From assembly GCF_000316625.1 (NCBI RefSeq), contig NC_019676.1, forward strand, positions 1,971,001 through 2,035,000: a DNA stretch of 64,000 bases, read 5' to 3'. The notes under the pieces are model-generated. The model was given only the letters and a program-made list of their open reading frames with translations, made no database searches and was not told where the DNA came from. This DNA comes from Nostoc sp. PCC 7107 (GTDB lineage Bacteria > Cyanobacteriota > Cyanobacteriia > Cyanobacteriales > Nostocaceae). Positions 4,761 to 16,070 of the stretch are shown here, piece by piece (position 1 is the stretch's first letter; each line of letters opens with the position of its first letter). A program made the translations under genes and the position numbers.

Positions 4761-5360
4761 CTAACTATGAATTCTCGGCTCTGGATGCAGGTTTATCAGC
4801 AAATCGCTTTCCACAATTGCTAACTCATCCAGCCGTTGCTGGACGATTTCCCGTGCAAAATAAGTATCTGCTAAAACCCAGTATGTACCAAAGTGTCTTG
4901 CTTCCGATGCCATTAAACCTTGATAAAATTTAGCTAATTCTGGTTCAGGACAGTGTGTAGCTAAAAGTCCTAGTCTTTCGTGACTGCGGGCTTCTATTAA
5001 GCCAGTGACGAGTAAGGAATCTAAAAAACGGTCTGGTTCGTTGGGACGGACAGCGGCTTTCAAACCAGCACCATAGGGAGGTGGTGATAAAGGTGCTAAG
5101 GGTATGTTGCGGCGTTCTAGCCACTGGTTGACAAGTTCAAAGTGTTCTAATTCTTCACGGGCGATCGCAGTTAATTCCCTTACCATTTTGGTATTGGAAG
5201 GATAGCGAAACATAAAATTTAACGCCACCCCCGCTGCTTTGCGTTCGCAGTGGGAATGGTCAAGCAAAATAATATCTAAATTTGCGATCGCTTGTTCTAC
5301 CCAAGCATCAGATGTCGGCTGCTTGAGGGCGTTGATAGTCGGTAATGCAGAAGTAAGCAC
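4761..5360 (-). CDS. miaE: tRNA-(ms2io6A)-hydroxylase
   Basis: A 199-residue ferritin-like di-iron protein matching MiaE, which hydroxylates the isopentenyl group of ms2i6A at tRNA position 37. The iron-ligand helices are visible: HCERKAAG, AREELEHFELV and later EARSHERLG and SEARHFGTYW, supplying the paired E..EXXH ligands. Length fits cyanobacterial MiaE. Translation could start at the ATG at 5360 (MLTSALPTINAL). The VOC gene follows 29 bases downstream. The reading frame upstream that overlaps this start shows no coding character. Confidence 0.88.
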   Translation of the reverse strand: MLTSALPTINALKQPTSDAWVEQAIANLDIILLDHSHCERKAAGVALNFMFRYPSNTKMVRELTAIAREELEHFELVNQWLERRNIPLAPLSPPPYGAGLKAAVRPNEPDRFLDSLLVTGLIEARSHERLGLLATHCPEPELAKFYQGLMASEARHFGTYWVLADTYFAREIVQQRLDELAIVESDLLINLHPEPRIHS

Positions 5361-5844
5361 AGGCTGAAATTAAAGAAATTGCCATCCTGCTGAGTATCCC
5401 AGCAAATCGATTGTAATAGCGAATGGGGTGAATTAGTGTAGGCGATCGCTGAAGAGGCTGAATATTTGGGTTTAGGGGTGTAAGAGTGACTTCAATATAA
5501 TTCTGTATAACCAAAATTAAGTAAATCACCAAAGCATAGTAATTTTCCTATTTTATTACATAAGTGTTGTGGTTGAAGTTAATCAACCCTACTTTTTTAG
5601 GAGTAATTATCTATTGCTTTGGTGCTTTTTTAGCGGATATTTCCGCCATAAGGGTAAAAGTAAAGGGCATATAAAGCCTATACTAGCTCTCTAGTAATTA
5701 CTGTATCAGCCCACACTATTTTCCCAAATTATCAGATTATTTTTGTTCAACAATCTTATGTCAAGAAAATCGTATACTTAACCAAACTTTGTACTGTTAA
5801 TTATCATGAATACTTTGTATTGATAATTAACTAAATATAAAATT
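5361..5844. other. Intergenic region upstream of miaE
   Basis: About 480 bases. It contains the miaE promoter region, a short inverted repeat GGTTGA/TCAACC at 5571-5588 followed on the plus side by a T-run, and an AGCGGATATTTCCGC-like palindrome near 5630. No gene is convincing. Confidence 0.45.
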
Positions 5845-6561
5845 TTACCAAGCAATTGATTGGCGATCGCGGAAAAATCCCCCAGTCACACCATCATTTT
5901 CAAGGGTAGCCAGCCAGACAATTGTATCAACTCCTTGTTCTGGGGTACGTGGTGCATTAGCGCCACCCATATCAGTTTTTACCCAACCGGGACATACAGA
6001 ATTAACTAATATATTTGTGCCAGTTAATTCACTAGCAAAAATTCGGGTTACAGCATTTAAAGCTGTTTTAGAAATGCGGTATCCAGGAGAACCACCCTCC
6101 ATATCTGTTAACTGTCCCATTCCCGAAGAAACATTAACTATTCGTCCGTAATTTTGCTTCTTCATTAAGGGAATTAACGCTTGAGTAACTCGCACAACAC
6201 CATAAACATTTGTTTCAATTGTTGTCTGTAGAGGATCAATTTTGGTATCAATAATGCTGTTACTTCCTGATTGAGCATCAATATAAATACCTGCATTATT
6301 TACCAGTGCATCAAGTTTGCCAAACTGCTGATCAATAAACTCAGCTAAATTTTGACTACTTTCATCACTGCTAACATCTAAAGTATAAGCAATTACATCT
6401 AAACCCTCAGCCTGTAACTTTTGCGCGGCTACCTTACCTTTATCTTCATCTCTGCTGGTGAGAATTACCTTATATCCTTGTTTCGCCAGTTGACGAGAAG
6501 CTTCAAATCCCAATCCACGATTTCCACCAGTAACGACAGCAACTTTTTGGTTTGTACTCAC
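5845..6561 (-). CDS. Short-chain dehydrogenase/reductase (SDR)
   Basis: A classical SDR of about 238 residues acting on an unidentified alcohol or carbonyl with NAD(P)H. Visible motifs are VTGGNRGLGFEAS (cofactor-binding TGxxxGxG), NNAG after the central strand, the catalytic Ser in NVSSGMGQ and YRISK (YxxxK). I chose the GTG at 6561 as start because GGAG stands 9-10 bases before it; an in-frame ATG 12 codons upstream would add a Lys/Tyr-rich stretch outside the fold. The C-terminus (GVTGGFFRDRQSIAW) resembles plant and cyanobacterial carbonyl-reductase-like SDRs. It appears monocistronic. Confidence 0.85.
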   Translation of the reverse strand: MSTNQKVAVVTGGNRGLGFEASRQLAKQGYKVILTSRDEDKGKVAAQKLQAEGLDVIAYTLDVSSDESSQNLAEFIDQQFGKLDALVNNAGIYIDAQSGSNSIIDTKIDPLQTTIETNVYGVVRVTQALIPLMKKQNYGRIVNVSSGMGQLTDMEGGSPGYRISKTALNAVTRIFASELTGTNILVNSVCPGWVKTDMGGANAPRTPEQGVDTIVWLATLENDGVTGGFFRDRQSIAW

Positions 6562-6660
6562 GCTGATTTTCTCCCCATAATATTTTTTTCGTGGCAACTT
6601 TTAAAATACAAGGGTGAATTTGAGATTACACCCATCGTTTGACAGAAACCAGATGATAAC

Positions 6661-7368
6661 TTAAATCTGCATCAATCCCCAAATCACACCTGCTGTAACT
6701 AGTGGGACACCAAGGTTATCTGTCCCGTGGGGTGATATGGCTTCAACTAAAGTTGCAAAACCAGCACTCACTAATGCTATTAATAAAGCCTTTCCCGCGC
6801 CAACAGAAACAGCTAAAGGACTAATCAAAGAACCAGGTAAAAACATTAGTACCAAAAATATTGCTGTTGTACTGGCTAAAAACATCGCCAGCGATCCTTC
6901 CCAAGAACGCACAGATGAACCTATTTGATATTGATGTTTTCCGAAACGTTTACCAATTAATGCAGCTAAAGCATCTCCCCAAGTCATAGCCATGATTCCC
7001 GCTACAGCAATGGGGACATGATCAACTGAGTCATCTGGTCGCCAAAATAACCCAAAAAGTAGTGTGACTGAAATTGCAAAATAAACAGTACCTGGGGAAC
7101 TATCTTCAGTATCCATTGCACCGATGATTCGATAACGATAAAGCAGATAATTGATGAAAATAAAGGTGGCGAAAGGGATAATACCGATTTGCCAATGTTT
7201 AAACAGCAACAGCACACCAAAAACCCACATCCCCGCGCCAACATGGATAACCTTGCGAGTTAAATCTGGCTTGACACCAAAAAATCTTCGCAGTCCTTCA
7301 CCAAGGGCTAATAAACTGACGGCATAGGTGTAAGAGGCTGCTAGTCCGATAAAATCAGCGTTAGTCAT
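6661..7368 (-). CDS. Phytol kinase-like membrane protein (VTE5 family)
   Basis: A 235-residue polytopic membrane protein of the phosphatidate cytidylyltransferase-like/phytol kinase family (VTE5, Slr1652). Such enzymes phosphorylate phytol from chlorophyll breakdown with CTP, feeding tocopherol and phylloquinone synthesis. About six hydrophobic segments are visible, with the family's loop motifs RKVIHVGAGMW, WGDALAALIGKRFGKH and SWEGSLAM in order and the C-terminal VEAISPHGTDNLGVPL. Related dolichol kinases share these motifs, so the substrate is inferred. The tocopherol cyclase gene at 58641-59726 in the same window is consistent with the pathway. Confidence 0.82.
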   Translation of the reverse strand: MTNADFIGLAASYTYAVSLLALGEGLRRFFGVKPDLTRKVIHVGAGMWVFGVLLLFKHWQIGIIPFATFIFINYLLYRYRIIGAMDTEDSSPGTVYFAISVTLLFGLFWRPDDSVDHVPIAVAGIMAMTWGDALAALIGKRFGKHQYQIGSSVRSWEGSLAMFLASTTAIFLVLMFLPGSLISPLAVSVGAGKALLIALVSAGFATLVEAISPHGTDNLGVPLVTAGVIWGLMQI

Positions 7369-7489
7369 TTTTCACCGGTCTAGGGTCAATGATTAATAGT
7401 TATTTTCGCTTTTATTGCCTGTTTCTCGATGACCTTTTTTCAGAGGAGTGTGTATCTAAAACTTTACACTCCAAGAACCTTACATACTT

Positions 7490-7522
7490 TGTTGGGTTTC
7501 GCTATCTCTCCACCCAACCTAC
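7490..7522. repeat. Dispersed small inverted repeat, copy 1
   Basis: GTTGGGTTTCG then CCACCCAACCTAC, with the stem GTTGGGT/ACCCAAC. A close copy lies at 42191-42220. It sits between the epimerase and the phytol kinase gene and may end the upstream transcript. Confidence 0.6.
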
Positions 7523-7551
7523 TTTTCTGCTTAACTGAACCGTATTGAGTT

Positions 7552-8520
7552 TTAAACGACAATCTTGGTGCGTAAGTCCTGCATTTGTGGTTGATGAGTA
7601 GGAGTAAATAGTAAGCGAGTCAAGCCTTGATGAATATCTACTTGGGGAGACCATTTTAAATATCGCATAGCTTTATTATCGGCGCAGCTGTGGTGAATAT
7701 CTCCCGGAAGACCTGGGCGAAAGATAGGACGCAGATTTTGTTTAGTAATTTGATTTAATAGCGCGATTAACTCTAATAAGCTGGTAGCTTGGCCGCATCC
7801 AATATTGAAGATTTTACCTGCGGCTTGGGGATGTTTCATGGCAATTAAGTTGGCTTGGACTACATCAGAAACGTGAATAAAATCACGACTTTGCAATCCA
7901 TTACCATAAATGATTGGCGGTACGCTTTGACGGATGCGATCGCAAAACTGAGAAATCACCCCTGTATAATCACTATTCTGACGCAGACCAAACACATTAA
8001 AATAGCGCAACGAAACAAACTCCACCAAGCCTTGTTGATGATAAATTTGTCCCAACTGCTCAGACGCGAGTTTATCAGCACCATAAGGACTAATGGGATG
8101 AGTCGGCATTGATTCTCGTTTTGGCAATGTAGGATCATTCCCATAAACAGCCGCACTACTAGCAAATATGACTCGTTTGACTCGACAGTGATGGGCTGCT
8201 TTTAAAACATTGGCTGTCCCACCATAATTAACTTGATGTGTCCCGACAGTATCTTGGAAGGATGCGGCGATATTTGCGATCGCGGCTTGATGAAAAACAT
8301 AATCGCACCCTTGCGTCGCTTTTTTGACATGATTGTAATTGGTCACATCACCTTTAATCCATTCCCACCTGTCTGGAGGTACAGCCAGTAAATTTTCTAA
8401 CTTGCCTGTGTAAAGGTTATCCAGCACTCGCACATAATAACCTCTATTCACTAATTCTTCGACTAGATGGGAACCGATAAAACCACATCCGCCTGTAACT
8501 AATACTACTTGGCGATTCAT
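7552..8520 (-). CDS. UDP-sugar 4-epimerase-like NAD-dependent epimerase/dehydratase
   Basis: A 322-residue extended SDR. It has TGGCGFIGSHL at residues 8-18, the catalytic Ser/Thr region FASSAAVYG and SPYGADK (YxxxK), and the C-terminal substrate domain including SLRYFNVFG and YGNGLQSRDFIHVSDV, which are typical of GalE/WbpP-type UDP-hexose and UDP-HexNAc epimerases. The start is the ATG at 8520, which overlaps the stop of the glycosyltransferase gene (ATGA), so translation is probably coupled. The longer frame upstream lies inside that gene and is discarded. The coupling suggests it supplies the nucleotide sugar used by the GlcNAc-transferase; the exact sugar is inferred. Last gene of the PqqD cluster. 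Confidence 0.85.
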   Translation of the reverse strand: MNRQVVLVTGGCGFIGSHLVEELVNRGYYVRVLDNLYTGKLENLLAVPPDRWEWIKGDVTNYNHVKKATQGCDYVFHQAAIANIAASFQDTVGTHQVNYGGTANVLKAAHHCRVKRVIFASSAAVYGNDPTLPKRESMPTHPISPYGADKLASEQLGQIYHQQGLVEFVSLRYFNVFGLRQNSDYTGVISQFCDRIRQSVPPIIYGNGLQSRDFIHVSDVVQANLIAMKHPQAAGKIFNIGCGQATSLLELIALLNQITKQNLRPIFRPGLPGDIHHSCADNKAMRYLKWSPQVDIHQGLTRLLFTPTHQPQMQDLRTKIVV

Positions 8521-10334
8521 GATTCGCTCGCTCCTAACCACGGTATAGTAATGGCAGAAACTTCTGGCATAGTTTCTAAGCACTGTATAACTGCTGCGGG
8601 TAAAACAATTTTGCAACACTGATTAGCTAACCAAATTCCCGTCAACAAGGCTTCTTTAGCGGTCATTTGTTCTGCCTGCTGTAACAAGTCATCCCAGCGT
8701 TGTGAGGGGTAACGGGCGATTAAGGCGGCGATTTGGTAAACTTTCCACAGCGATCGCTCCCAACCAATTTTCGCGGCACTAATACACAGCAGGAGTAAGT
8801 AATCTTGCGGTGGTAGGGTCTGGATTGTGTGATTTTCTAACTCTACTTTACACAGGCGTTCTGTTTGCCATTCCCAACCTAAAAGCTGCCAATATAGCTC
8901 AATTTTTACGGCGCGTTGGGGATGGGTGAAGGATTGTTGCCCAATTTGCCAAATCTCTCCCGGCTGATATCCGGCGGTTGTGAGGATTTCTGTAACGGTG
9001 GCGCGATCGCTGGCTGCTATCCACAAATCCAAGGTTTGAAATTGCCAGAGAGATAAATCACCATCTACCAATGCGGCGAGGGCTGGCTCGTTGATGGGAA
9101 TCGCCGTGACTTGGGCGGTGGCGAGTTGATTTAATAAATGCAGTAAAACTTGGCTATGAGAACGATTACGCAGGGCATTAGCGTAATAATATTGTTGCAA
9201 TTCTCGCAGTGTAGACTCTGGGACAAACTTAGGAGCCGTTTTGTTTAAACTCCAATAGGCAAGCGATAATACACCTAACTCAGAGGCAACCTTGACAAAA
9301 TACTGCCAATCAATCTGCACAAGCCGAGAATAGTCTTTGTCATCCTTTAACAGAGACTTGAGGCGATCTCTAACTGTCTCGTCAAAATAGATTTGGAGAC
9401 ATCCAGACAGCAATTGCATCGCCCGTTGTTGCTCATCTTTGATGTATTTTTGCCAGTTGCGAAAACTCACACCCGCAAATGCTTCGTAATCTGTGAGCGA
9501 TCGCACATTTCCTAACCCATAAATGCCAAAATCCTCAGTCATCGGTTCCATCTGCAAAATTTGGCGAAATCGTTGTTCGGAAATAGTATGGCGTTGATAC
9601 CAGTCTTGATTGTCTTCCCAGTTTAGCGGGCGTGGCTTTTCTTGGGTGTCATAGTAATAGTGCCAACAGATAACACGATGGGGATGGTAGATATCCCACC
9701 CATTTGTCCAGGCGCGGACAGAATAAGCCACCTCAGTAGCCGAAAAGTAAAGCAGTTGATCATGGGGAACTTCCTGCATCAAACGCGCATCGGCAAACAT
9801 AAATCCCCCCGCCATAAATGCGCCAGATTTAGGGGCGTGATAATTGCTTAAATCTTCCACGGCTCTTGGAGTCATCATCCCATTGTGGGCAAATCTGCCT
9901 GTGGCTGTACCTGTAGGGAAGTTAGACAAAATTACTCTGGGGGGATGATAGCCCGGAGGAAATGCCGTGAGTACAGGTTTTTGGCTGGGACACATCGCCA
10001 ACATTTCAATCAGTAGGGTATCCCAGCCAGTAGCAAAGCGCATGTGGGCATCTGTTTGCAGGGCATAGCGTTCTCCTTGCCAAAGTTTTTCAGTTTGGGA
10101 TCTTGCCCAACCCAAACCGCAAGATTCGGCTGCTGGTACTGTCGCAACCCGACAATTGGGAATATCTTTCAGCCCATCAATGAAGTGTAGTTCTTCATCA
10201 TTGCCATATTGCCAGCAAATACCAAAACTGATGCGTTCGGGACATAGTGCCTGGGCTAAGGCATCTTTGACTGTGGGGATTAATTCAAAATCGCGGTAAG
10301 CCGCAATCTGGACAAAAATGCGATCGCTGATCAT
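8517..10334 (-). CDS. GT60-type polypeptide GlcNAc-transferase fused to degenerate nucleotidyltransferase domain
   Basis: A 605-residue two-domain protein. Residues 1-300 match the GlcNAc-transferase family PF11397 (CAZy GT60), known from Dictyostelium Skp1 hydroxyproline GlcNAc-transferase and the Trypanosoma cruzi mucin Thr GlcNAc-transferase. Key motifs are FVQIAAYRD at the start, YALQTDAHMRFATGWD around residues 90-105 (the metal/nucleotide-binding D-x-H) and later GGFMFADARL and VICWHYYY. Residues 345-600 resemble the NTP_transf_5 protein encoded at 12801-13985 (LYWQLLGWEW, PQDYLLLLCISAAKIGWERSLW align with LHWRL and PEDLLLVLCVHGAKECW), but the GS-(x)-DxD catalytic signature is gone, so this half is probably a binding domain. 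The gene starts 25 bases after the oxygenase stop and overlaps the epimerase by 4 bases. Substrate assignment is inference. Confidence 0.85.
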   Translation of the reverse strand: MISDRIFVQIAAYRDFELIPTVKDALAQALCPERISFGICWQYGNDEELHFIDGLKDIPNCRVATVPAAESCGLGWARSQTEKLWQGERYALQTDAHMRFATGWDTLLIEMLAMCPSQKPVLTAFPPGYHPPRVILSNFPTGTATGRFAHNGMMTPRAVEDLSNYHAPKSGAFMAGGFMFADARLMQEVPHDQLLYFSATEVAYSVRAWTNGWDIYHPHRVICWHYYYDTQEKPRPLNWEDNQDWYQRHTISEQRFRQILQMEPMTEDFGIYGLGNVRSLTDYEAFAGVSFRNWQKYIKDEQQRAMQLLSGCLQIYFDETVRDRLKSLLKDDKDYSRLVQIDWQYFVKVASELGVLSLAYWSLNKTAPKFVPESTLRELQQYYYANALRNRSHSQVLLHLLNQLATAQVTAIPINEPALAALVDGDLSLWQFQTLDLWIAASDRATVTEILTTAGYQPGEIWQIGQQSFTHPQRAVKIELYWQLLGWEWQTERLCKVELENHTIQTLPPQDYLLLLCISAAKIGWERSLWKVYQIAALIARYPSQRWDDLLQQAEQMTAKEALLTGIWLANQCCKIVLPAAVIQCLETMPEVSAITIPWLGASES

Positions 10335-10359
10335 ATATCACCGCCAAAACAGCAACAAA

Positions 10360-11013
10360 TTACCAATTAGTAGGGTTTTTAAACACCGATTTCCGAATCC
10401 AGCCGTGAAAAGTGAAACGGCTGTCAGCAAACATTTTTGATGGACAACAAACAGGTAACACTTCATGCAGATAACGACTGGGAAACAGAATGATGCTGTT
10501 TTGCTGGGGAGTTATCTGTTGTTCTAAGAGTTGATCACTGTCATCTAAGCAAAAACGCAACTCACCACCAGAAAATGCCTGTGGTTCCCGATAAAAGTAG
10601 TAAACATAGGAAATTTCTCGGTTGAAAGTATCGTAACTACCGTTATCACTATGCAGTTTGTAATAGTTGCCATCGTTATGTGCGGTAATTTGTGTTTCAA
10701 TTAACGTCACAAAAAATGGTGGAATATCTAACTGCTGGCAAACTTGTGGCAGTAAGGACTTTACTTTATCAACTATGAGTGATTGGACTTCTGCAACCGC
10801 ATTCAAACTTTGGGAAACTCGATAGTCTGATTGATTGGTAAAAGTGGTACTGCGAACAAATTGATTTGCTTGCGCCAGAATGTAATCGAGTAATGTTTGC
10901 CATTCTTGATGATCGAGAAAATTCAGCAAATGTATATAAAGTGGAGTATTTACCACATGTTTGCCATCTGGCTGTTTATCAGTTCCCAGTTCTAAACAGA
11001 CAATATCTTGCAT
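10360..11013 (-). CDS. 2OG-Fe(II) oxygenase, prolyl-4-hydroxylase-like
   Basis: About 217 residues from the ATG at 11013 (MQDIVCLELG). A longer frame with 17 extra residues starts inside the spacer and looks non-coding. The iron triad is visible: HSD near residues 121-123, then His in YLHEVLPV near 183, and the 2-oxoglutarate-binding Arg in DSRFTFHGWIR near 199. The order and spacing fit prolyl 4-hydroxylase/PKHD-type dioxygenases, which hydroxylate Pro or other residues of proteins. It lies between the PqqD poly-Thr protein and the GT60 transferase. In Dictyostelium a prolyl hydroxylase and a GT60 enzyme act in sequence on Skp1, so a similar two-step modification is an attractive inference here. 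The substrate is unproven. Confidence 0.8.
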   Translation of the reverse strand: MQDIVCLELGTDKQPDGKHVVNTPLYIHLLNFLDHQEWQTLLDYILAQANQFVRSTTFTNQSDYRVSQSLNAVAEVQSLIVDKVKSLLPQVCQQLDIPPFFVTLIETQITAHNDGNYYKLHSDNGSYDTFNREISYVYYFYREPQAFSGGELRFCLDDSDQLLEQQITPQQNSIILFPSRYLHEVLPVCCPSKMFADSRFTFHGWIRKSVFKNPTNW

Positions 11014-11069
11014 AGTGCTGCTAACAGTAAAAATCTGGAAAAAGCGGTAACAGAAGTGTGTCAATCACA

Positions 11070-11597
11070 CTAAGTGATTGGCTCTGTGGTAGTTGGCGCG
11101 GCTGTAGTTGTAGTGGTGGTGGTTGTAGTAGTTGTTGTAGTGGTGGTGGTTGTAGTTGTCGTTGTTGTCGTGGCACTAGAGCCAGTAGGAGCTGCCATTG
11201 CTGGGGTAGGAACAATAATCGATTTAATGGCTGGGAACAAAGAGCCAATGGCAAAGCCACCTACTAAACTGACTTTTTTAAGTACTTGGCGGCGGGAAGT
11301 TTGGGGACTATTCAGGGGTTCGATAACGGCTGCATCTAACAAATGAAACTGTTCTAACTCGGCTAATGTCAATTGAACTAAACCATGCCAATCAACTGTT
11401 TGATTTGGTGGAAACTCAAATTCTGCTTGTAGCAAACGTGCAATGGTTTCGACGGTATTTTGACCATTACACAGATACCAGACACGTACTGCGATCGCAC
11501 TCAGGCAATGGGCAGTATCTCGCGTTTCATCATAAACAATTAACTCTTCTCCGACTTCTTGAATCAATAAATTTTCCGTGCGAGCAACTGGAATCAT
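11070..11597 (-). CDS. PqqD-domain protein with internal Tat-type signal and poly-threonine tail
   Basis: A 175-residue protein with an unusual plan. Residues 1-90 form a PqqD/RRE-like domain (LIQEVGEELIVYDETRDTAH, then AVRVWYLCNGQNTVETIARLL), the module that binds leader peptides in RiPP pathways. Residues 100-136 look like a twin-arginine export signal: TSRRQVLKKVS, a hydrophobic stretch VGGFAIGSLFPAI, and a signal-peptidase-like AMA-AP. Residues 143-165 are 23 consecutive threonines, followed by AAPTTTEPIT and the stop. A strong AAGGAG precedes the ATG by 9 bases. The HprK-like gene is 30 bases upstream and the oxygenase about 56 bases downstream. My inference is a precursor whose Thr/Pro tail is modified and exported while the PqqD part recruits the enzymes. 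An enzyme-accessory role for the PqqD part alone is possible. Confidence 0.85.
   Translation of the reverse strand: MIPVARTENLLIQEVGEELIVYDETRDTAHCLSAIAVRVWYLCNGQNTVETIARLLQAEFEFPPNQTVDWHGLVQLTLAELEQFHLLDAAVIEPLNSPQTSRRQVLKKVSLVGGFAIGSLFPAIKSIIVPTPAMAAPTGSSATTTTTTTTTTTTTTTTTTTTTTTAAPTTTEPIT
11103..11171 (-). repeat. Poly-Thr codon tract
   Basis: Twenty-three consecutive ACN codons. All four Thr codons occur, and a block reading ACT ACA ACC ACC ACC appears twice in the same order. The mixture argues for selection on the amino acid rather than simple triplet slippage, with one likely internal duplication. Confidence 0.9.
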
Positions 11598-11627
11598 CGA
11601 TTTATTCTCCTTGTATTTGGTTTGGGC

Positions 11628-12482
11628 TTAAGAAAGCAATGTCAATACTTGATCAACTAATTGTGCTGCTTCACCCCGTTGTCCAGCGAAACATGAACTA
11701 CCGACAGTTGCAGCAGTCAAAATAGATAATGTTAGCTCCGGGTATAACCGAGCAGTTAAAGTGTTATCCAACAGCCCCAGAATGGCTTGTCCAGTAGATA
11801 TTGCTGCTGGTTGCCATTTTGCTTGCAGATGATATTGTGTTTGTAAAATTACATTGATTTTCACAGGACAACTACCCACTGCGACACCTAGATTTGTGGC
11901 AGTCAATCGCTGTCTTTTTTCAGAAGAAGTACGTACAGATAAGGCTCTAGGATAGGGATGAACTAATCCCTGGCGATCTAAAACGGCGTATTCATCCGAG
12001 TAATAAGTTGCGCCAGCTTGCAAAAAGGCCATGACTAAGGTAGTTTTCCCACTGAAACTACGCCCAGGAATGACGATCGCATAATCGCCCCAAGCAATTA
12101 CGCCAGCATGAATAAATAACCAATCCTGAGTTGCCATCCCAATCGATAAACACAGGTCATTTTCCAGTAGCGTGAAGACTTCATCCAAATCGGGAGAACA
12201 AAGCAGTTCGGCTTGGCCTTCATATAGCCGATAGACAGACTCATGATCTTTGTCGGTGCTAACCCACAACGAATAGAGTTTCTGAACAGTTAATCCAGAT
12301 AATGGAAAGCGGATGGGTGGCAAATACGCTTGCAGCGGTTCTAGCAAAGTAGACTTGTTCAGTCTGATGCCAATTCCTATGCCATAACTGCTGAAAAAAA
12401 TGCGATCGCTCCATTCCAAATTTTCTAAGCAGAATGCTTGTTTGTTGGCATCCTGATCAACTGGTGAAGTTGTCAAAATCAT
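11628..12482 (-). CDS. HprK-like kinase/phosphorylase family protein
   Basis: A 284-residue protein related to the C-terminal kinase domain of HPr kinase/phosphorylase. A Walker A motif IPGRSFSGKTTLV lies near residues 137-149, preceded by HAGVIAWGDYAIV and followed by ATYYSDEYAVLD, whose acidic SDE matches the HprK catalytic region. The N-terminal 100 residues are not recognised. HprK-like proteins recur next to PqqD-domain proteins and nucleotidyltransferases in RiPP loci; in some lasso-peptide clusters they phosphorylate the peptide. Here Ser/Thr phosphorylation of the poly-Thr protein is a possible job, by inference. It lies 30 bases upstream of the PqqD gene and 318 bases downstream of the nucleotidyltransferase gene, so it may head the main operon. 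Confidence 0.82.
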   Translation of the reverse strand: MILTTSPVDQDANKQAFCLENLEWSDRIFFSSYGIGIGIRLNKSTLLEPLQAYLPPIRFPLSGLTVQKLYSLWVSTDKDHESVYRLYEGQAELLCSPDLDEVFTLLENDLCLSIGMATQDWLFIHAGVIAWGDYAIVIPGRSFSGKTTLVMAFLQAGATYYSDEYAVLDRQGLVHPYPRALSVRTSSEKRQRLTATNLGVAVGSCPVKINVILQTQYHLQAKWQPAAISTGQAILGLLDNTLTARLYPELTLSILTAATVGSSCFAGQRGEAAQLVDQVLTLLS

Positions 12483-12800
12483 CCTAATGCAGTAGTGTCA
12501 AACCCTGAAAATAAATATTAAAACAGTTAAATTAGCTCAAACAAATTCACCACTATGAATTCAGATAGGGAGTAGAGGCTAGTATTCTTACTCAGCACTT
12601 CCAGTCAATCATGGTAAACATTTGCCATCAAGCATGAAAAAAGATTTACACCCTTTACCCCCTATCGATAACACCTTTTCTTAAGCTCTGAGCCGTGACT
12701 TTGCTAGATCAAATCAATCTATTACACTCGCAGGTGATTCTAATCTGACTTCTTCACCAAAGCAGATGACTGGCAACAAATTGTTACTGAATCAGGTCAA
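12483..12800. other. Gap inside the PqqD cluster, probable promoter region
   Basis: 318 bases between the nucleotidyltransferase stop and the HprK-like start. I see no precursor-peptide-like frame on either strand. A plus-strand stretch of 25 codons near 12745-12822 looks faintly protein-like (KADDWQQIVTESGQSF) but has no start codon. A promoter for the five downstream genes is likely here. Confidence 0.45.
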
Positions 12801-13985
12801 TCATTTTCTGATCGCTTTACTTAATTGTTCGACGCACAAGCGGATTGGCCTGATGAGGTAATACAAGAAAGATAGTGAATTTGGCAGGTTGAACAACCGC
12901 CGATCGCGTACATTGGGAATTAAAAACCGCCAAACAAAATACTGCACCCAATCCCAACTGTGATCGCGGACTCGCAAACGAAACATTGTTGTTTGCCAAG
13001 TTGTGGATAAGGGCAGAGGATGTGAGAATAAGCGATTGATCACTTGTTGAAACAACTCAGGTAAGCAAGTGTCTTGGATAATTGCGGTTTGTAAAGATTG
13101 GGGAATTGGGGCTTGTAACAAATCTTGAGCCAGTTTCAGCCCTAAAAGTAGCATTCGATGACAGTGTAATATGTGCGATCGCTCCTCCACAGCCTGCCAA
13201 TCGAGATGTTTGTAAGTTCGCAACAATTCAGCAATATCACAAATCCACTTTAATTGTGACCAGCATTCTTTAGCACCGTGAACACACAATACTAACAGCA
13301 AGTCTTCGGGAGATAAGGTAACAACATCAGTGTCTAACAAATTCACTGACTGACGACGTTCCCACAACTGTTCAAAAGGTATTTCTAAAGCAAAAAATCT
13401 TGGTGTTAATCGCCAGTGTAAATCTATGGCTACATCTTTATTTGGCAGCAAAAAATCTCGTTCACTATCTGACCAAATATTCATTTTTTCTTGACTATTA
13501 TCCACCGCCAGGGTTTCATAACCATGCTGAATTAGTAAAGCTTTTGCAGCTAGTAAATAATCTGGATGGATTAAAATATCCAAGTCACTGAAATAGCGGA
13601 GTGCATAACTACCATAGAGTGCCACTGCTAAAGTCGGGCCTTTGTATGGTAAAACCGGAATTTGATGTGTGTGGAAATCTTGCAATAGTCTGATTAATTC
13701 ATGACTGCAAATCATCCCCTTGAGTATATAACCTTGATAGTTTTGCTGGAGTTGATTCAACAAACTCTTGGGTAAATTCACCGCATCAACAGTTTGTAAA
13801 CTTTCCCATAGCAAACCATCAATTCCATTACGACTCGATAAATCTTGCAATAAAGTCCAATTAATCTGTGTCTTACAAAGCTCCTGAATTGCTATGTTTA
13901 AAGCTGGCGATCGCTTAGTATGAGCGCAATTCAAAATTAACTGCACTTCTGGTAAGTTAATGGAAATAATTGATTGTCTATTCAC
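12801..13985 (-). CDS. Nucleotidyltransferase family protein (NTP_transf_5)
   Basis: A 394-residue member of the uncharacterised nucleotidyltransferase family PF14907. The catalytic signature is present: YKGPTLAVALYGSYALRYFSD followed by LDILIHP, giving the GS and D-x-D residues of the polymerase-beta fold. A conserved second block IDLHWRL and PEDLLLVLCVHGAKECWSQLKW follows. Family members cluster with PqqD and HprK-like genes and in some lasso-peptide loci add nucleotides or phosphates to the product. The frame starts with GTG at 13985. It is the most upstream gene of the cluster on this strand, separated by 318 bases from the next. A degenerate paralogue is fused to the GT60 enzyme. Confidence 0.85.
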   Translation of the reverse strand: MNRQSIISINLPEVQLILNCAHTKRSPALNIAIQELCKTQINWTLLQDLSSRNGIDGLLWESLQTVDAVNLPKSLLNQLQQNYQGYILKGMICSHELIRLLQDFHTHQIPVLPYKGPTLAVALYGSYALRYFSDLDILIHPDYLLAAKALLIQHGYETLAVDNSQEKMNIWSDSERDFLLPNKDVAIDLHWRLTPRFFALEIPFEQLWERRQSVNLLDTDVVTLSPEDLLLVLCVHGAKECWSQLKWICDIAELLRTYKHLDWQAVEERSHILHCHRMLLLGLKLAQDLLQAPIPQSLQTAIIQDTCLPELFQQVINRLFSHPLPLSTTWQTTMFRLRVRDHSWDWVQYFVWRFLIPNVRDRRLFNLPNSLSFLYYLIRPIRLCVEQLSKAIRK

Positions 13986-14075
13986 TTGTGTCTTTCACAA
14001 TAAAAAAATTGCTACAAGAAGCGTAAAGCGAAATTTTAGCAATCCGGCACGGTGCTGAAATGAATAAAATTATAG

Positions 14076-14288
14076 TTATGGCAGTCCTCAATCAATCCTC
14101 GACAACAAGAGGTGGTTAATCTTGTGATTCGATTGCTAACTAAGCGATTTGGAGAACTATCTGAAGAACTGCGATCGCACATTTCCAGTTTACCTCTGCC
14201 TGTTCTCGAAGATTTAAGTGAGGCATTGCTGGATTTCACCAGTTTAGCTGATTTACAAGTTTGGTTAGCCGCAATTGATCACCAATAA
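14076..14288 (+). pseudogene. DUF4351 C-terminal remnant of an Rpn-type nuclease/transposase protein
   Basis: The plus strand encodes VIRLLTKRFGELSEELRSHI and SLPLPVLEDLSEALLDFTSL then ADLQVWLAAIDHQ and a stop. This is the DUF4351 module found at the end of Rpn/PD-(D/E)XK recombination-promoting nuclease-like proteins in cyanobacteria. Only this domain remains: a TAG at 14073 closes the frame upstream and nothing of the nuclease domain is visible. A GTG at 14112 could start a 58-codon product, but decay after deletion is more likely. Confidence 0.65.
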
Positions 14289-14303
14289 CAAATGACTACT
14301 TAT

Positions 14304-16070
14304 TTACTTTGGTCTTTCGCTGTTGCGGTTGAAATTTTTATCTGGGAATGACACACTACCGATACCTTGCAAAATCCCACGACCGATTAAACCTAAACCA
14401 CGACCGATAATTTGGGTGAGAACAAAGACAATACCACTACCTAAAAAAGATAATAGGGATTGTAGACGAGGAGCGATCGCATCCCAAAATTCTAGCCCTA
14501 GTGTCACAAATAAAGGAACGCCCGAAAGTTTGGCTAATTCTGTGTTTCGCGGAGCATATATCGAAGTTTTCGCAATCCCGCGCGGTGCTAACACAAACAA
14601 CTCATAACGACTTTCAAAAATTGCTTTAGCTTCATTAACATAATAATTTAAACGATATTTCCATGACAATTCATTTCTAAATCGTTCAATCTCTCGCGTA
14701 GAAATTAACTTCCGATTATAGAAATTTTTCTTAATTGTTTCTACATCTGCTAAATAATTCAACAGTGGCTGCAATACCCCATTTCCTATCTGAATCAACA
14801 AATTTTCTAAAATGATTAATGCCTGAGATTTCGCATCATTACTATTAGCTAAATAAGCATGATTGTCAATATATAAATCTGTTTGAAATAGTAGATAAGA
14901 AAATAACTCTAATACAAAAGGAATTTTATTTAATATCTCTGTTTGAATAACTCTGGGATTTTGCAACAATACATTGACAACTGAGATATTTTGTTTTCCG
15001 ACCTGCACTTGGGAAAACTTGCCGAAAAAATCTGTTACTGTGGCTTGCCAAACATCAAATAATATAGTATTCTTGTATCCTTCTAACTGCTCAATTGTAA
15101 TTTGAGCCACACGTAAACTATCTAACTGCGTAGCTAATTTTTGTAATATTAAATAAAGTAAATCGCGTTTTTTGGATTCATATAAAATATCAATTTCTAA
15201 AGGAACATCTGCAACGTTTTCTAAAGGCGATTTTAGCTTATTGATACAAGTTGAAAATAACTCAAATTGCAAGTTAATTGGGTTAATTTCTGGCAACAAA
15301 GTTAGCGGTTGTTCCACATCTGTTGTGACAATAGCACTACTAGATAAAGGAATAAATGGCAATTCTTCAGCAGAGGAAGTTAATTGTTGCCTTTGTTGGG
15401 ATGAACTTAAAAATTTATTGAGTAACCAACGCGCTGCTAAAAGTTCTCGCCGTTGTCCAGCCAGCAAAGCCTGTTCTAGTATTGGTAAACCTGGGGTTTG
15501 TAATTGTAATGTAACTTTTGCGAAGGAATCATTAATATAATTAATTCCCGATAAACACTGATTATGCCATAGCTGCAATAAAGGCATCTGAGGCGGTGGA
15601 GAAATATTAACTTGAGAAGGATTGGTATTTAATGCCCAATAGGAATCACCTGTTGCTACTTCTGCTATGACAGCAATGATTTGAGATATGGGAGTACCTT
15701 TAGGGAGATAGCCATTGATCCCAGCTACCTTGGCCGCCGTAAGTATTTCTGGGTTTTGGGCAGAACTCAGCAGTAAAATTGGCAAGGTGGGATATGTAGT
15801 TTTGAGCAGACGACAGAATTGTAAACTTTGTAACTGACTATCAAGAGAACGACCGTTTCCCAATTCTAAAACAACTAGATTTACTTGGTTGGGGTCTTGA
15901 TGAGCAAATTCTGCTAGTCTTTGCAAAGCAGCAATATCGCTTTCTACTTCTGCTACAACTTGCCAGTTAGGCATTTCTTCCAAAGCTACCCGCAGTCCCA
16001 AGCAAAAAATAGGATCTTGGTCAATTAGTAATATTTTGAGAGGGCGATCGCTCATCATGTACTGAGACAC
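14304..16070 (-). CDS. DUF3685 (Ycf55-like) protein with pseudo-receiver domain
   Basis: A 588-residue protein. Residues 8-140 form a response-regulator receiver-like domain: ILLIDQDPIF supplies the acidic pair, ILLLSSA the Ser/Thr switch and GYLPKG the conserved Lys, but the usual phospho-acceptor Asp is Glu in NLVVLELGNG. The rest matches DUF3685, the family of the red-algal plastid gene ycf55, function unknown. Two hydrophobic C-terminal segments (FVLTQIIGRGLGLIGRGILQ region) may touch membranes. The GTG at 16070 is preferred because AGGAGG lies about 10 bases upstream; an ATG at codon 5 or 6 is the alternative. It is divergent from the NACHT gene with only 88 bases between them. Confidence 0.82.
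   Translation of the reverse strand: MSQYMMSDRPLKILLIDQDPIFCLGLRVALEEMPNWQVVAEVESDIAALQRLAEFAHQDPNQVNLVVLELGNGRSLDSQLQSLQFCRLLKTTYPTLPILLLSSAQNPEILTAAKVAGINGYLPKGTPISQIIAVIAEVATGDSYWALNTNPSQVNISPPPQMPLLQLWHNQCLSGINYINDSFAKVTLQLQTPGLPILEQALLAGQRRELLAARWLLNKFLSSSQQRQQLTSSAEELPFIPLSSSAIVTTDVEQPLTLLPEINPINLQFELFSTCINKLKSPLENVADVPLEIDILYESKKRDLLYLILQKLATQLDSLRVAQITIEQLEGYKNTILFDVWQATVTDFFGKFSQVQVGKQNISVVNVLLQNPRVIQTEILNKIPFVLELFSYLLFQTDLYIDNHAYLANSNDAKSQALIILENLLIQIGNGVLQPLLNYLADVETIKKNFYNRKLISTREIERFRNELSWKYRLNYYVNEAKAIFESRYELFVLAPRGIAKTSIYAPRNTELAKLSGVPLFVTLGLEFWDAIAPRLQSLLSFLGSGIVFVLTQIIGRGLGLIGRGILQGIGSVSFPDKNFNRNSERPK

Follow-up and report, generated by a model that had tools for sequence, protein, structure and literature searches.

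Several described systems combine the protein families considered here. The HPr-rel-A system and the SynChlorMet cassette (TIGR04352/04353 and TIGR04248/04249) pair an HprK-like kinase with a PqqD-family protein, and phosphorylated or glycosylated lasso peptides such as paeninodin and pseudomycoidin involve an HprK-like kinase and a nucleotidyltransferase that act on a ribosomal peptide. We take PsmN to be a member of the NTP_transf_5 family. Passages of PMC9266682 link PsmN to a hexose on phospho-Ser. The locus described here is a cassette of six genes at positions 7552-13985 of a 64,000-nucleotide stretch of the Nostoc sp. PCC 7107 genome (NC_019676.1, positions 1,971,001 to 2,035,000 of the forward strand), which is referred to below as the window. 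One of its products, the presumed precursor, consists of a PqqD domain and an internal signal resembling those of twin-arginine translocation (Tat), together called the leader, followed by a poly-Thr tail, called the cargo.

Judged by profile, the HPr-rel-A and SynChlorMet cassettes are the nearest systems, with the window proteins under their cut-offs. The comparison was made on the kinase and PqqD profiles. The window kinase matches TIGR04352 at 5.6e-14, under cut-off. At E<=1, TIGR04353 is reported for 13 of 15 leaders (best 1.5e-7) and TIGR04248 for all 15 (best 1.8e-6), the window leader being under the TIGR04248 cut-off and not reported for TIGR04353. In contrast with both systems, PqqD is here fused in cis to the Tat-like signal and cargo. 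The locus differs from lasso peptide clusters in its Tat-like export signal, in its Thr/Pro- or Cys-rich cargos, and in the lack of a lasso protease or cyclase among the 10 window proteins scanned. With the ribosomally synthesized and post-translationally modified peptides (RiPPs) that depend on a RiPP recognition element (RRE), such as PQQ, lasso peptides and others, it has in common a PqqD/RRE-type domain, a conserved leader and a hypervariable product region. Passages of PMC7470986 describe those pathways as having an RRE that acts on a leader separate from it, whereas the RRE-like domain of the present locus belongs to the substrate itself.

Glycosylation of Skp1 by a GT60 enzyme provides a further precedent. 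In excerpts of PMC7185993 and PMC9472816, GT60 is presented as a family of polypeptide Thr transferases that is related to GT27, has a DxH motif and adds N-acetylglucosamine (GlcNAc) onto Thr of T. cruzi mucins (PMC9472816). The window resembles these cases in having a GT60 protein with DxH, a candidate substrate rich in Thr and, nearby, an enzyme resembling prolyl hydroxylases. It differs in being bacterial, in the fusion of GT60 to a degenerate NTP_transf_5 domain, and in a candidate substrate that is a PqqD-led peptide with a Tat-like signal.

Precursor leader and cargo

From its sequence and that of its relatives, we read the window locus as one branch, Thr-rich and of glycosylation type, of a family of RiPP-like precursors in which substrate and recognition domain are a single protein. 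It appears to us rather probable that the product of the locus is a secreted, RiPP-like peptide derived from a precursor with a recognition domain of its own. The gene content was observed to be as originally predicted: open reading frames and domain profiles place six genes of the named families in one orientation on the minus strand, namely a short-chain dehydrogenase/reductase (SDR) epimerase, a GT60 protein, a 2-oxoglutarate (2OG)-Fe(II) oxygenase, the PqqD/Tat-like/poly-Thr protein, an HprK-like kinase and an NTP_transf_5 protein.

The precursor gene (11070..11597) encodes a PqqD domain at residues 19-66 (11400..11543), which scores 24.8 bits with PF05402 against a cut-off of 23.4 (25.6 bits for the leader alone). 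The same family is reported for 15 of 15 leaders at E<=1, and the sole match of the leader profile in PDB is PqqD 5sxy (E 0.046). Residues 101-135 (11193..11297) form the Tat-like signal SRRQVLKK...PTPAMA, with SRR, a hydrophobic stretch and an AMA end. The cargo that follows (11073..11192) has 40 residues, including 28 Thr and zero Cys, and its translation holds the run of 23 consecutive Thr that had been predicted. All four Thr codons are intermixed in this tail, which is therefore no simple triplet repeat; slippage was rejected on this basis, and the codon mixture suggests selection at the protein level.

The family comprises 21 copies of the precursor at 13 loci, one copy (in genome G776) being partial. 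All 20 full-length copies were observed to have the same architecture, with PqqD and the presumed substrate in one protein and with SRR, which 15 of 15 aligned leaders also show. The PqqD domain and the internal twin-arginine segment constitute a conserved leader of about 135 residues. Conservation of the leader was observed together with hypervariability of the cargo, since copies from the same genome have leaders that are 84-100% identical and cargos that are only 15-67% identical (9/9 comparisons, 7 genomes). At the level of sequence, ribosomal peptide precursors show the same pattern, but the leader here is itself a PqqD-type domain.

Cargos of the window genus are Thr/Ser/Pro-rich (68-82% T+S+P) and have zero Cys. 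Both copies in G742 combine a (TP)n run with six Cys, and Cys-rich cargos (4-12 Cys) are found in G088, G726, G748, G777, G785 and Gemmatirosa. Thr/Ser-rich tails had been expected on all PqqD partners, and outside the Thr-rich branch this expectation failed, an outcome that the original prediction had itself named as counting against it: cargos are Cys-rich at 7 of 13 loci, counting G742 with its TP run, and short and charged in G774. Pfam matches of the Cys-rich cargos to cystine-knot-like families are weak (best 0.0087) and all under cut-offs. Several of the short Cys-rich cargos (L103-L106, L058) have CC patterns, and a few have sub-threshold matches to cystine-knot toxin, WAP and tachystatin families.

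Enzymes of the cassette and their association with the cargo

Homologues of HprK and NTP_transf_5 are present at 13 of 13 loci (partial in G776) whatever the tail, so the tail-specific phosphorylation proposed earlier is not supported. Other enzymes were observed to vary with the cargo, in classes and genus-level tables that we assigned from the sequences. A MauE-thioredoxin protein is encoded at 7/7 loci with Cys-rich cargo and 0/6 others (Fisher p 0.0006 by locus; 5/5 versus 0/3 by genus, p 0.018). A fusion of a glycosyltransferase to NTP_transf_5 is encoded at 6/6 loci with Thr/Pro-rich runs and 0/7 others (Fisher p 0.0006 by locus; 3/3 versus 0/5 by genus, p 0.018). The originally proposed link between a glycosyltransferase and the Thr/Pro tail is thereby supported at the level of sequence.

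The GT60-NTP_transf_5 fusion occurs at 5 of 13 loci, all with Thr/Pro-rich cargo or cargo start, and the (TP)n locus of G742 has an O-FucT-like-NTP_transf_5 fusion (Pfam 3e-5, under cut-off). At the seven loci without Thr/Pro runs, Pfam revealed no glycosyltransferase domain in the NTP_transf_5 proteins. In G088, NTP_transf_5 is instead fused to an FkbM methyltransferase, so that this domain is joined to three different modifying enzymes: GT60, O-FucT-like (under cut-off) and FkbM. G742 also encodes (L107:5197-9370) a MauE-thioredoxin protein fused to a Cupin_8/JmjC hydroxylase-like domain, beside its two (TP)n plus Cys-rich precursors. G776, which belongs to another family, holds a decayed GT60-NTP_transf_5 copy and lacks the oxygenase and epimerase; at this locus (L109) a transposase-like gene lies between two GT60 pieces, and HprK and PqqD are truncated.

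In the window, the GT60 protein presents both features of its family, a PF11397 match (210.6 bits versus a cut-off of 21; E 5.7e-62 for the whole protein) and the DxH motif (D95-A-H97), in a GT60 domain at 9435..10334. It also holds an NTP_transf_5 domain at residues 341-573 (8616..9314; Pfam 1.3e-32) that the original prediction missed. There are thus two NTP_transf_5 domains, as the predicted nucleotidyltransferases would require, with one of them fused to GT60 rather than forming a separate protein. In an alignment of 15 NTP_transf_5 domains, the Arg and first Asp of the R..xD[LI]D motif are gone from all four GT60-fused sequences (G000, G001, G009, G010) and retained in the other 11. The separate NTP_transf_5 protein (PF14907, 9.6e-63; 12801..13985), one of the two core genes, has R..xDLD intact in the motif alignment. 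A gap of 318 bases divides its gene from that of the kinase, and it may be transcribed apart from the others.

The second core gene, for the HprK-like kinase (11628..12482), has zero Pfam matches and scores 51.9 bits with NCBIfam HprK-related kinase A (5.6e-14; cut-off 200). Its Walker A motif, GRSFSGK, and an invariant SDEY were recognized in an alignment of eight sequences. The oxygenase (10360..11013), which probably starts at the ATG at 11013 rather than at the upstream TTG, matches 2OG-FeII_Oxy_3 (PF13640) at 9.7e-18. Its HxD...H motif (H121-S-D123, H183) is kept in three homologues. The six PDB sequences that it matches (E 0.002-0.056) include both PKHD-type and prolyl 4-hydroxylases (PKHD-type 3dkq, 0.002; prolyl 4-hydroxylase 6t8m, 0.0055, and 4iw3, 0.011). 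The gene for the SDR UDP-sugar 4-epimerase-like protein (7552..8520; Pfam Epimerase 3.4e-65) overlaps that for GT60 by 4 bases. Its best PDB match is 6wjb (3.6e-68), followed by 6wj9, with WbpP and WbgU within the top eight. We take 6wj9 and 6wjb to be PelX, and all of these to be UDP-GlcNAc 4-epimerases, which would supply UDP-N-acetylgalactosamine. The PDB sequence search at E<=1 gave no match for the GT60 protein, the HprK-like kinase or the O-FucT-like fusion of G742.

A similar N-terminal stretch was noticed by eye ahead of GT60 in one genus (L063-L065) and ahead of the oxygenase in G726 and G748 (L103/L104), and is possibly a common docking helix. In G534 (L070) and G531 (L071), an NTP_transf_5 protein adjoins a Tat-like protein with long Thr/Gly/Asn repeats. 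The NTP_transf_5 protein of G534 ends in a PqqD domain (35 bits versus 23.4), and an HprK-like gene is near in this genome only. These two loci were excluded from the 13 because their Thr-rich protein has no PqqD leader; they may represent a second way of coupling these modules to a Thr-rich exported protein.

Distribution of the cassette

The complete six-gene set is found in identical order in 4 of 11 same-genus genomes, the window genome counted, which indicates that the arrangement is not due to chance. In four of the seven same-genus genomes without the leader, the flanking DUF3685 and CTP_transf_1-like genes are only 35-1218 bases apart, and the cassette thus behaves as an accessory block; in the other three, the DUF3685 flank was not found within the stretch examined. 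The predicted co-occurrence of the genes beyond close relatives holds for HprK, NTP_transf_5 and the leader, which are shared by the 13 loci, whereas the full set of six was found only in one genus.

Genome searches with the leader and HprK profiles scored the best 6-10 candidates per genome, and the cut-offs for strong matches were set after the lists had been inspected. Among 388 genomes of the order, nine contain the leader at E<=4e-16. Two families within the order account for seven of these nine and gave no further strong match. The window's own family (217 genomes) has the leader in four same-genus genomes and G088, and a sample of the phylum (386 genomes) gave strong matches only in the window genome and G088. 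Weaker matches in 21 of the 30 order genomes with any match (E from 1.9e-6 up), in 5 of the 10 such family genomes and in G128 were left out of these counts, being taken, mostly without inspection, as plain PqqD proteins or other matches. The cassette HprK profile reached E<=1e-15 in nine of the 388 order genomes, the same nine as in the leader search, the two samples being assumed identical. Since this profile was built from these same loci, the informative part is its absence from the other 379 genomes at that threshold.

Phyla beyond cyanobacteria were covered by the plasmid, phage and viral collections and by one narrow contig scan. A plasmid of Gemmatirosa kalamazoonensis (Gemmatimonadota) carries a full-length copy of the leader (37% identical, E 1e-19), the only one among 72,556 plasmid records. 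The cassette core is thereby represented in a second phylum. The leader was not found in the phage collection or the viral contigs.

GT60 is more widely spread, with matches above cut-off in 16 of 386 cyanobacterial genomes. The GT60 surroundings were examined in 9 of the 15 non-window genomes, and in none of these 9 did blastp find another cassette gene. Twelve plasmid records match the GT60 protein, eight of them in its GT60 half, and the surroundings of three of these eight were inspected. With GT60 genes also occurring outside the cassette, GT60 alone was rejected as a marker of the system. In G330, G777 and G785 (L066, L121, L122), a 296-residue GT60 protein without NTP_transf_5, 55-57% identical to the window domain, lies near a gene that we take to encode a DndB-like protein. 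GT60 genes on Burkholderia and Azospirillum plasmids (L144, L147) adjoin type VI secretion and phage-tail-like genes.

Proposed pathway and alternative explanations

The pathway that we infer, from docking through each chemical step to export, cleavage and function, would run as follows. The N-terminal PqqD domain, of RRE type, would serve in cis as the leader to which the enzymes of the cassette bind, with NTP_transf_5 modules as the probable docking or transfer partners. Such a role would account for the fusion of these modules to different tailoring enzymes and for the degenerate copy kept on GT60. The cargo would be modified in the cytoplasm, where GT60, fed by the epimerase, would put an N-acetylhexosamine (HexNAc) on Thr or hydroxy-Pro, and the 2OG oxygenase may hydroxylate Pro. 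Whatever the cargo, HprK and NTP_transf_5 would carry out one and the same step (phosphorylation, and sugar or nucleotide transfer). Export of the finished product would follow through the Tat-like signal, and signal peptidase would cut after AxA, so that PqqD stays behind and a mucin-like Thr-rich peptide is released. The resulting interpretation of the product as a bacterial mucin is plausible.

Several observations weigh against this interpretation. Of 10 full precursors from other loci, five have PqqD scores under the Pfam cut-off. The predicted Tat signal is based on SRR, the hydrophobic stretch and AMA, but it begins at residue 101, an unusual position, and the NCBIfam Tat model gives the window precursor 11.6-13.2 against a cut-off of 16.7. 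TIGR01409 is reported for 7 of 15 leaders at E<=1, with the window leader under cut-off. Among the 20 full-length copies, AxA is missing in G748b, replaced by VMA in G785 and shifted in G726b. The G774 cargo consists of 18 residues and is charged, with neither Thr nor Cys, and that of G776, with zero Cys, has after its Pro/Thr run a longer stretch without Thr enrichment. GT60 genes without the cassette are not rare and stand in unrelated contexts, so GT60 need not act on the Thr tail; unlinked GT60 genes are also carried elsewhere in the genomes of the Cys-rich cassettes of G726, G748, G777 and G785. The oxygenase does belong to the 2OG family with HxD...H, but a relative 43-45% identical to it adjoins the Cys-rich loci of G726 and G748, which makes its predicted link to the Thr tail weak. 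The associations between enzymes and cargo come from related genomes, four loci being from one genus. The G774 contig stops 187 bases past the cassette and the G776 cassette is decayed, so that genes missing there, including MauE, are weaker evidence. AlphaFold models of the GT60-NTP_transf_5 protein and the oxygenase, built from three-sequence alignments, reached a mean pLDDT (predicted local distance difference test) of 35.6 and 36.9 and were discarded.

Among the alternatives, the one that survives best is that the leader itself is the target of HprK and NTP_transf_5, in an export-licensing check, with the cargo enzymes recruited independently. The presence of both proteins at every locus with any cargo fits this proposal, as do invariant candidate sites in the leader alignment, S101 and H30-C31 among others. 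The precedent for an HprK-like kinase is, however, the C-terminal Ser of the product peptide, as stated in passages of PMC9266682, and we consider leader licensing somewhat unlikely. It is compatible with the cis-leader pathway and differs only in the target of the kinase.

Thr-rich tracts are common as spacers, and the PqqD-Tat protein might accordingly be an ordinary Tat-targeted surface protein with an unmodified low-complexity tail, the enzymes acting elsewhere, for example on exopolysaccharide. The near solved relatives of the epimerase include polysaccharide-precursor enzymes, and the unrelated contexts of other GT60 genes point the same way. This explanation leaves unaccounted for the change of enzymes with the cargo, the presence of HprK and leader in the same nine genomes, and the RiPP-type recognition domain ahead of the signal, and we regard it as improbable.

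A decayed or divergent lasso-peptide cluster, for which HprK, NTP_transf_5 and PqqD (B1) are known accessory proteins, is very improbable and was rejected. In its favour, G443 and G444 hold these three families next to genes that by eye look asparagine-synthase-like and transglutaminase-like, and passages of PMC7533575 place the three in the lasso clusters of rumen bacteria. Against it, the 10 window proteins scanned (4761-16070) include neither a transglutaminase-like protease nor an asparagine-synthase-like cyclase, PqqD and the presumed substrate form one protein, the tail does not resemble a lasso peptide, and four genomes have kept the gene set.

Returning to the cis-leader pathway, there is a real chance that the family is a separate class. 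No description of a PqqD-Tat fused or RRE-fused precursor was found among the literature titles and abstracts listed, which for one search were 25 of 349, a coverage that mostly excludes subscription journals. We tentatively propose, as a possibility that falls somewhat short of an even chance, a new ribosomal peptide class in which the N-terminus of the substrate, a PqqD-Tat leader suited to any cargo, is the recognition element, cargos are swapped, NTP_transf_5 brings the fitting enzyme (GT60, O-FucT-like or FkbM) and export proceeds by Tat, with the Nostoc locus yielding a mucin-type peptide via cytoplasmic hydroxylation and HexNAc transfer. If this is true, a single leader would bring unrelated peptides, whether Thr-rich, built of Thr-Pro repeats or cystine-rich, together with different tailoring enzymes and send them out via Tat, in effect a natural plug-in platform for secreted, modified peptides. 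The NTP_transf_5 and HprK-like families, which are poorly understood, would then have a shared, testable task, and the window locus and its relatives would offer bacterial examples of GT60-type protein O-glycosylation.

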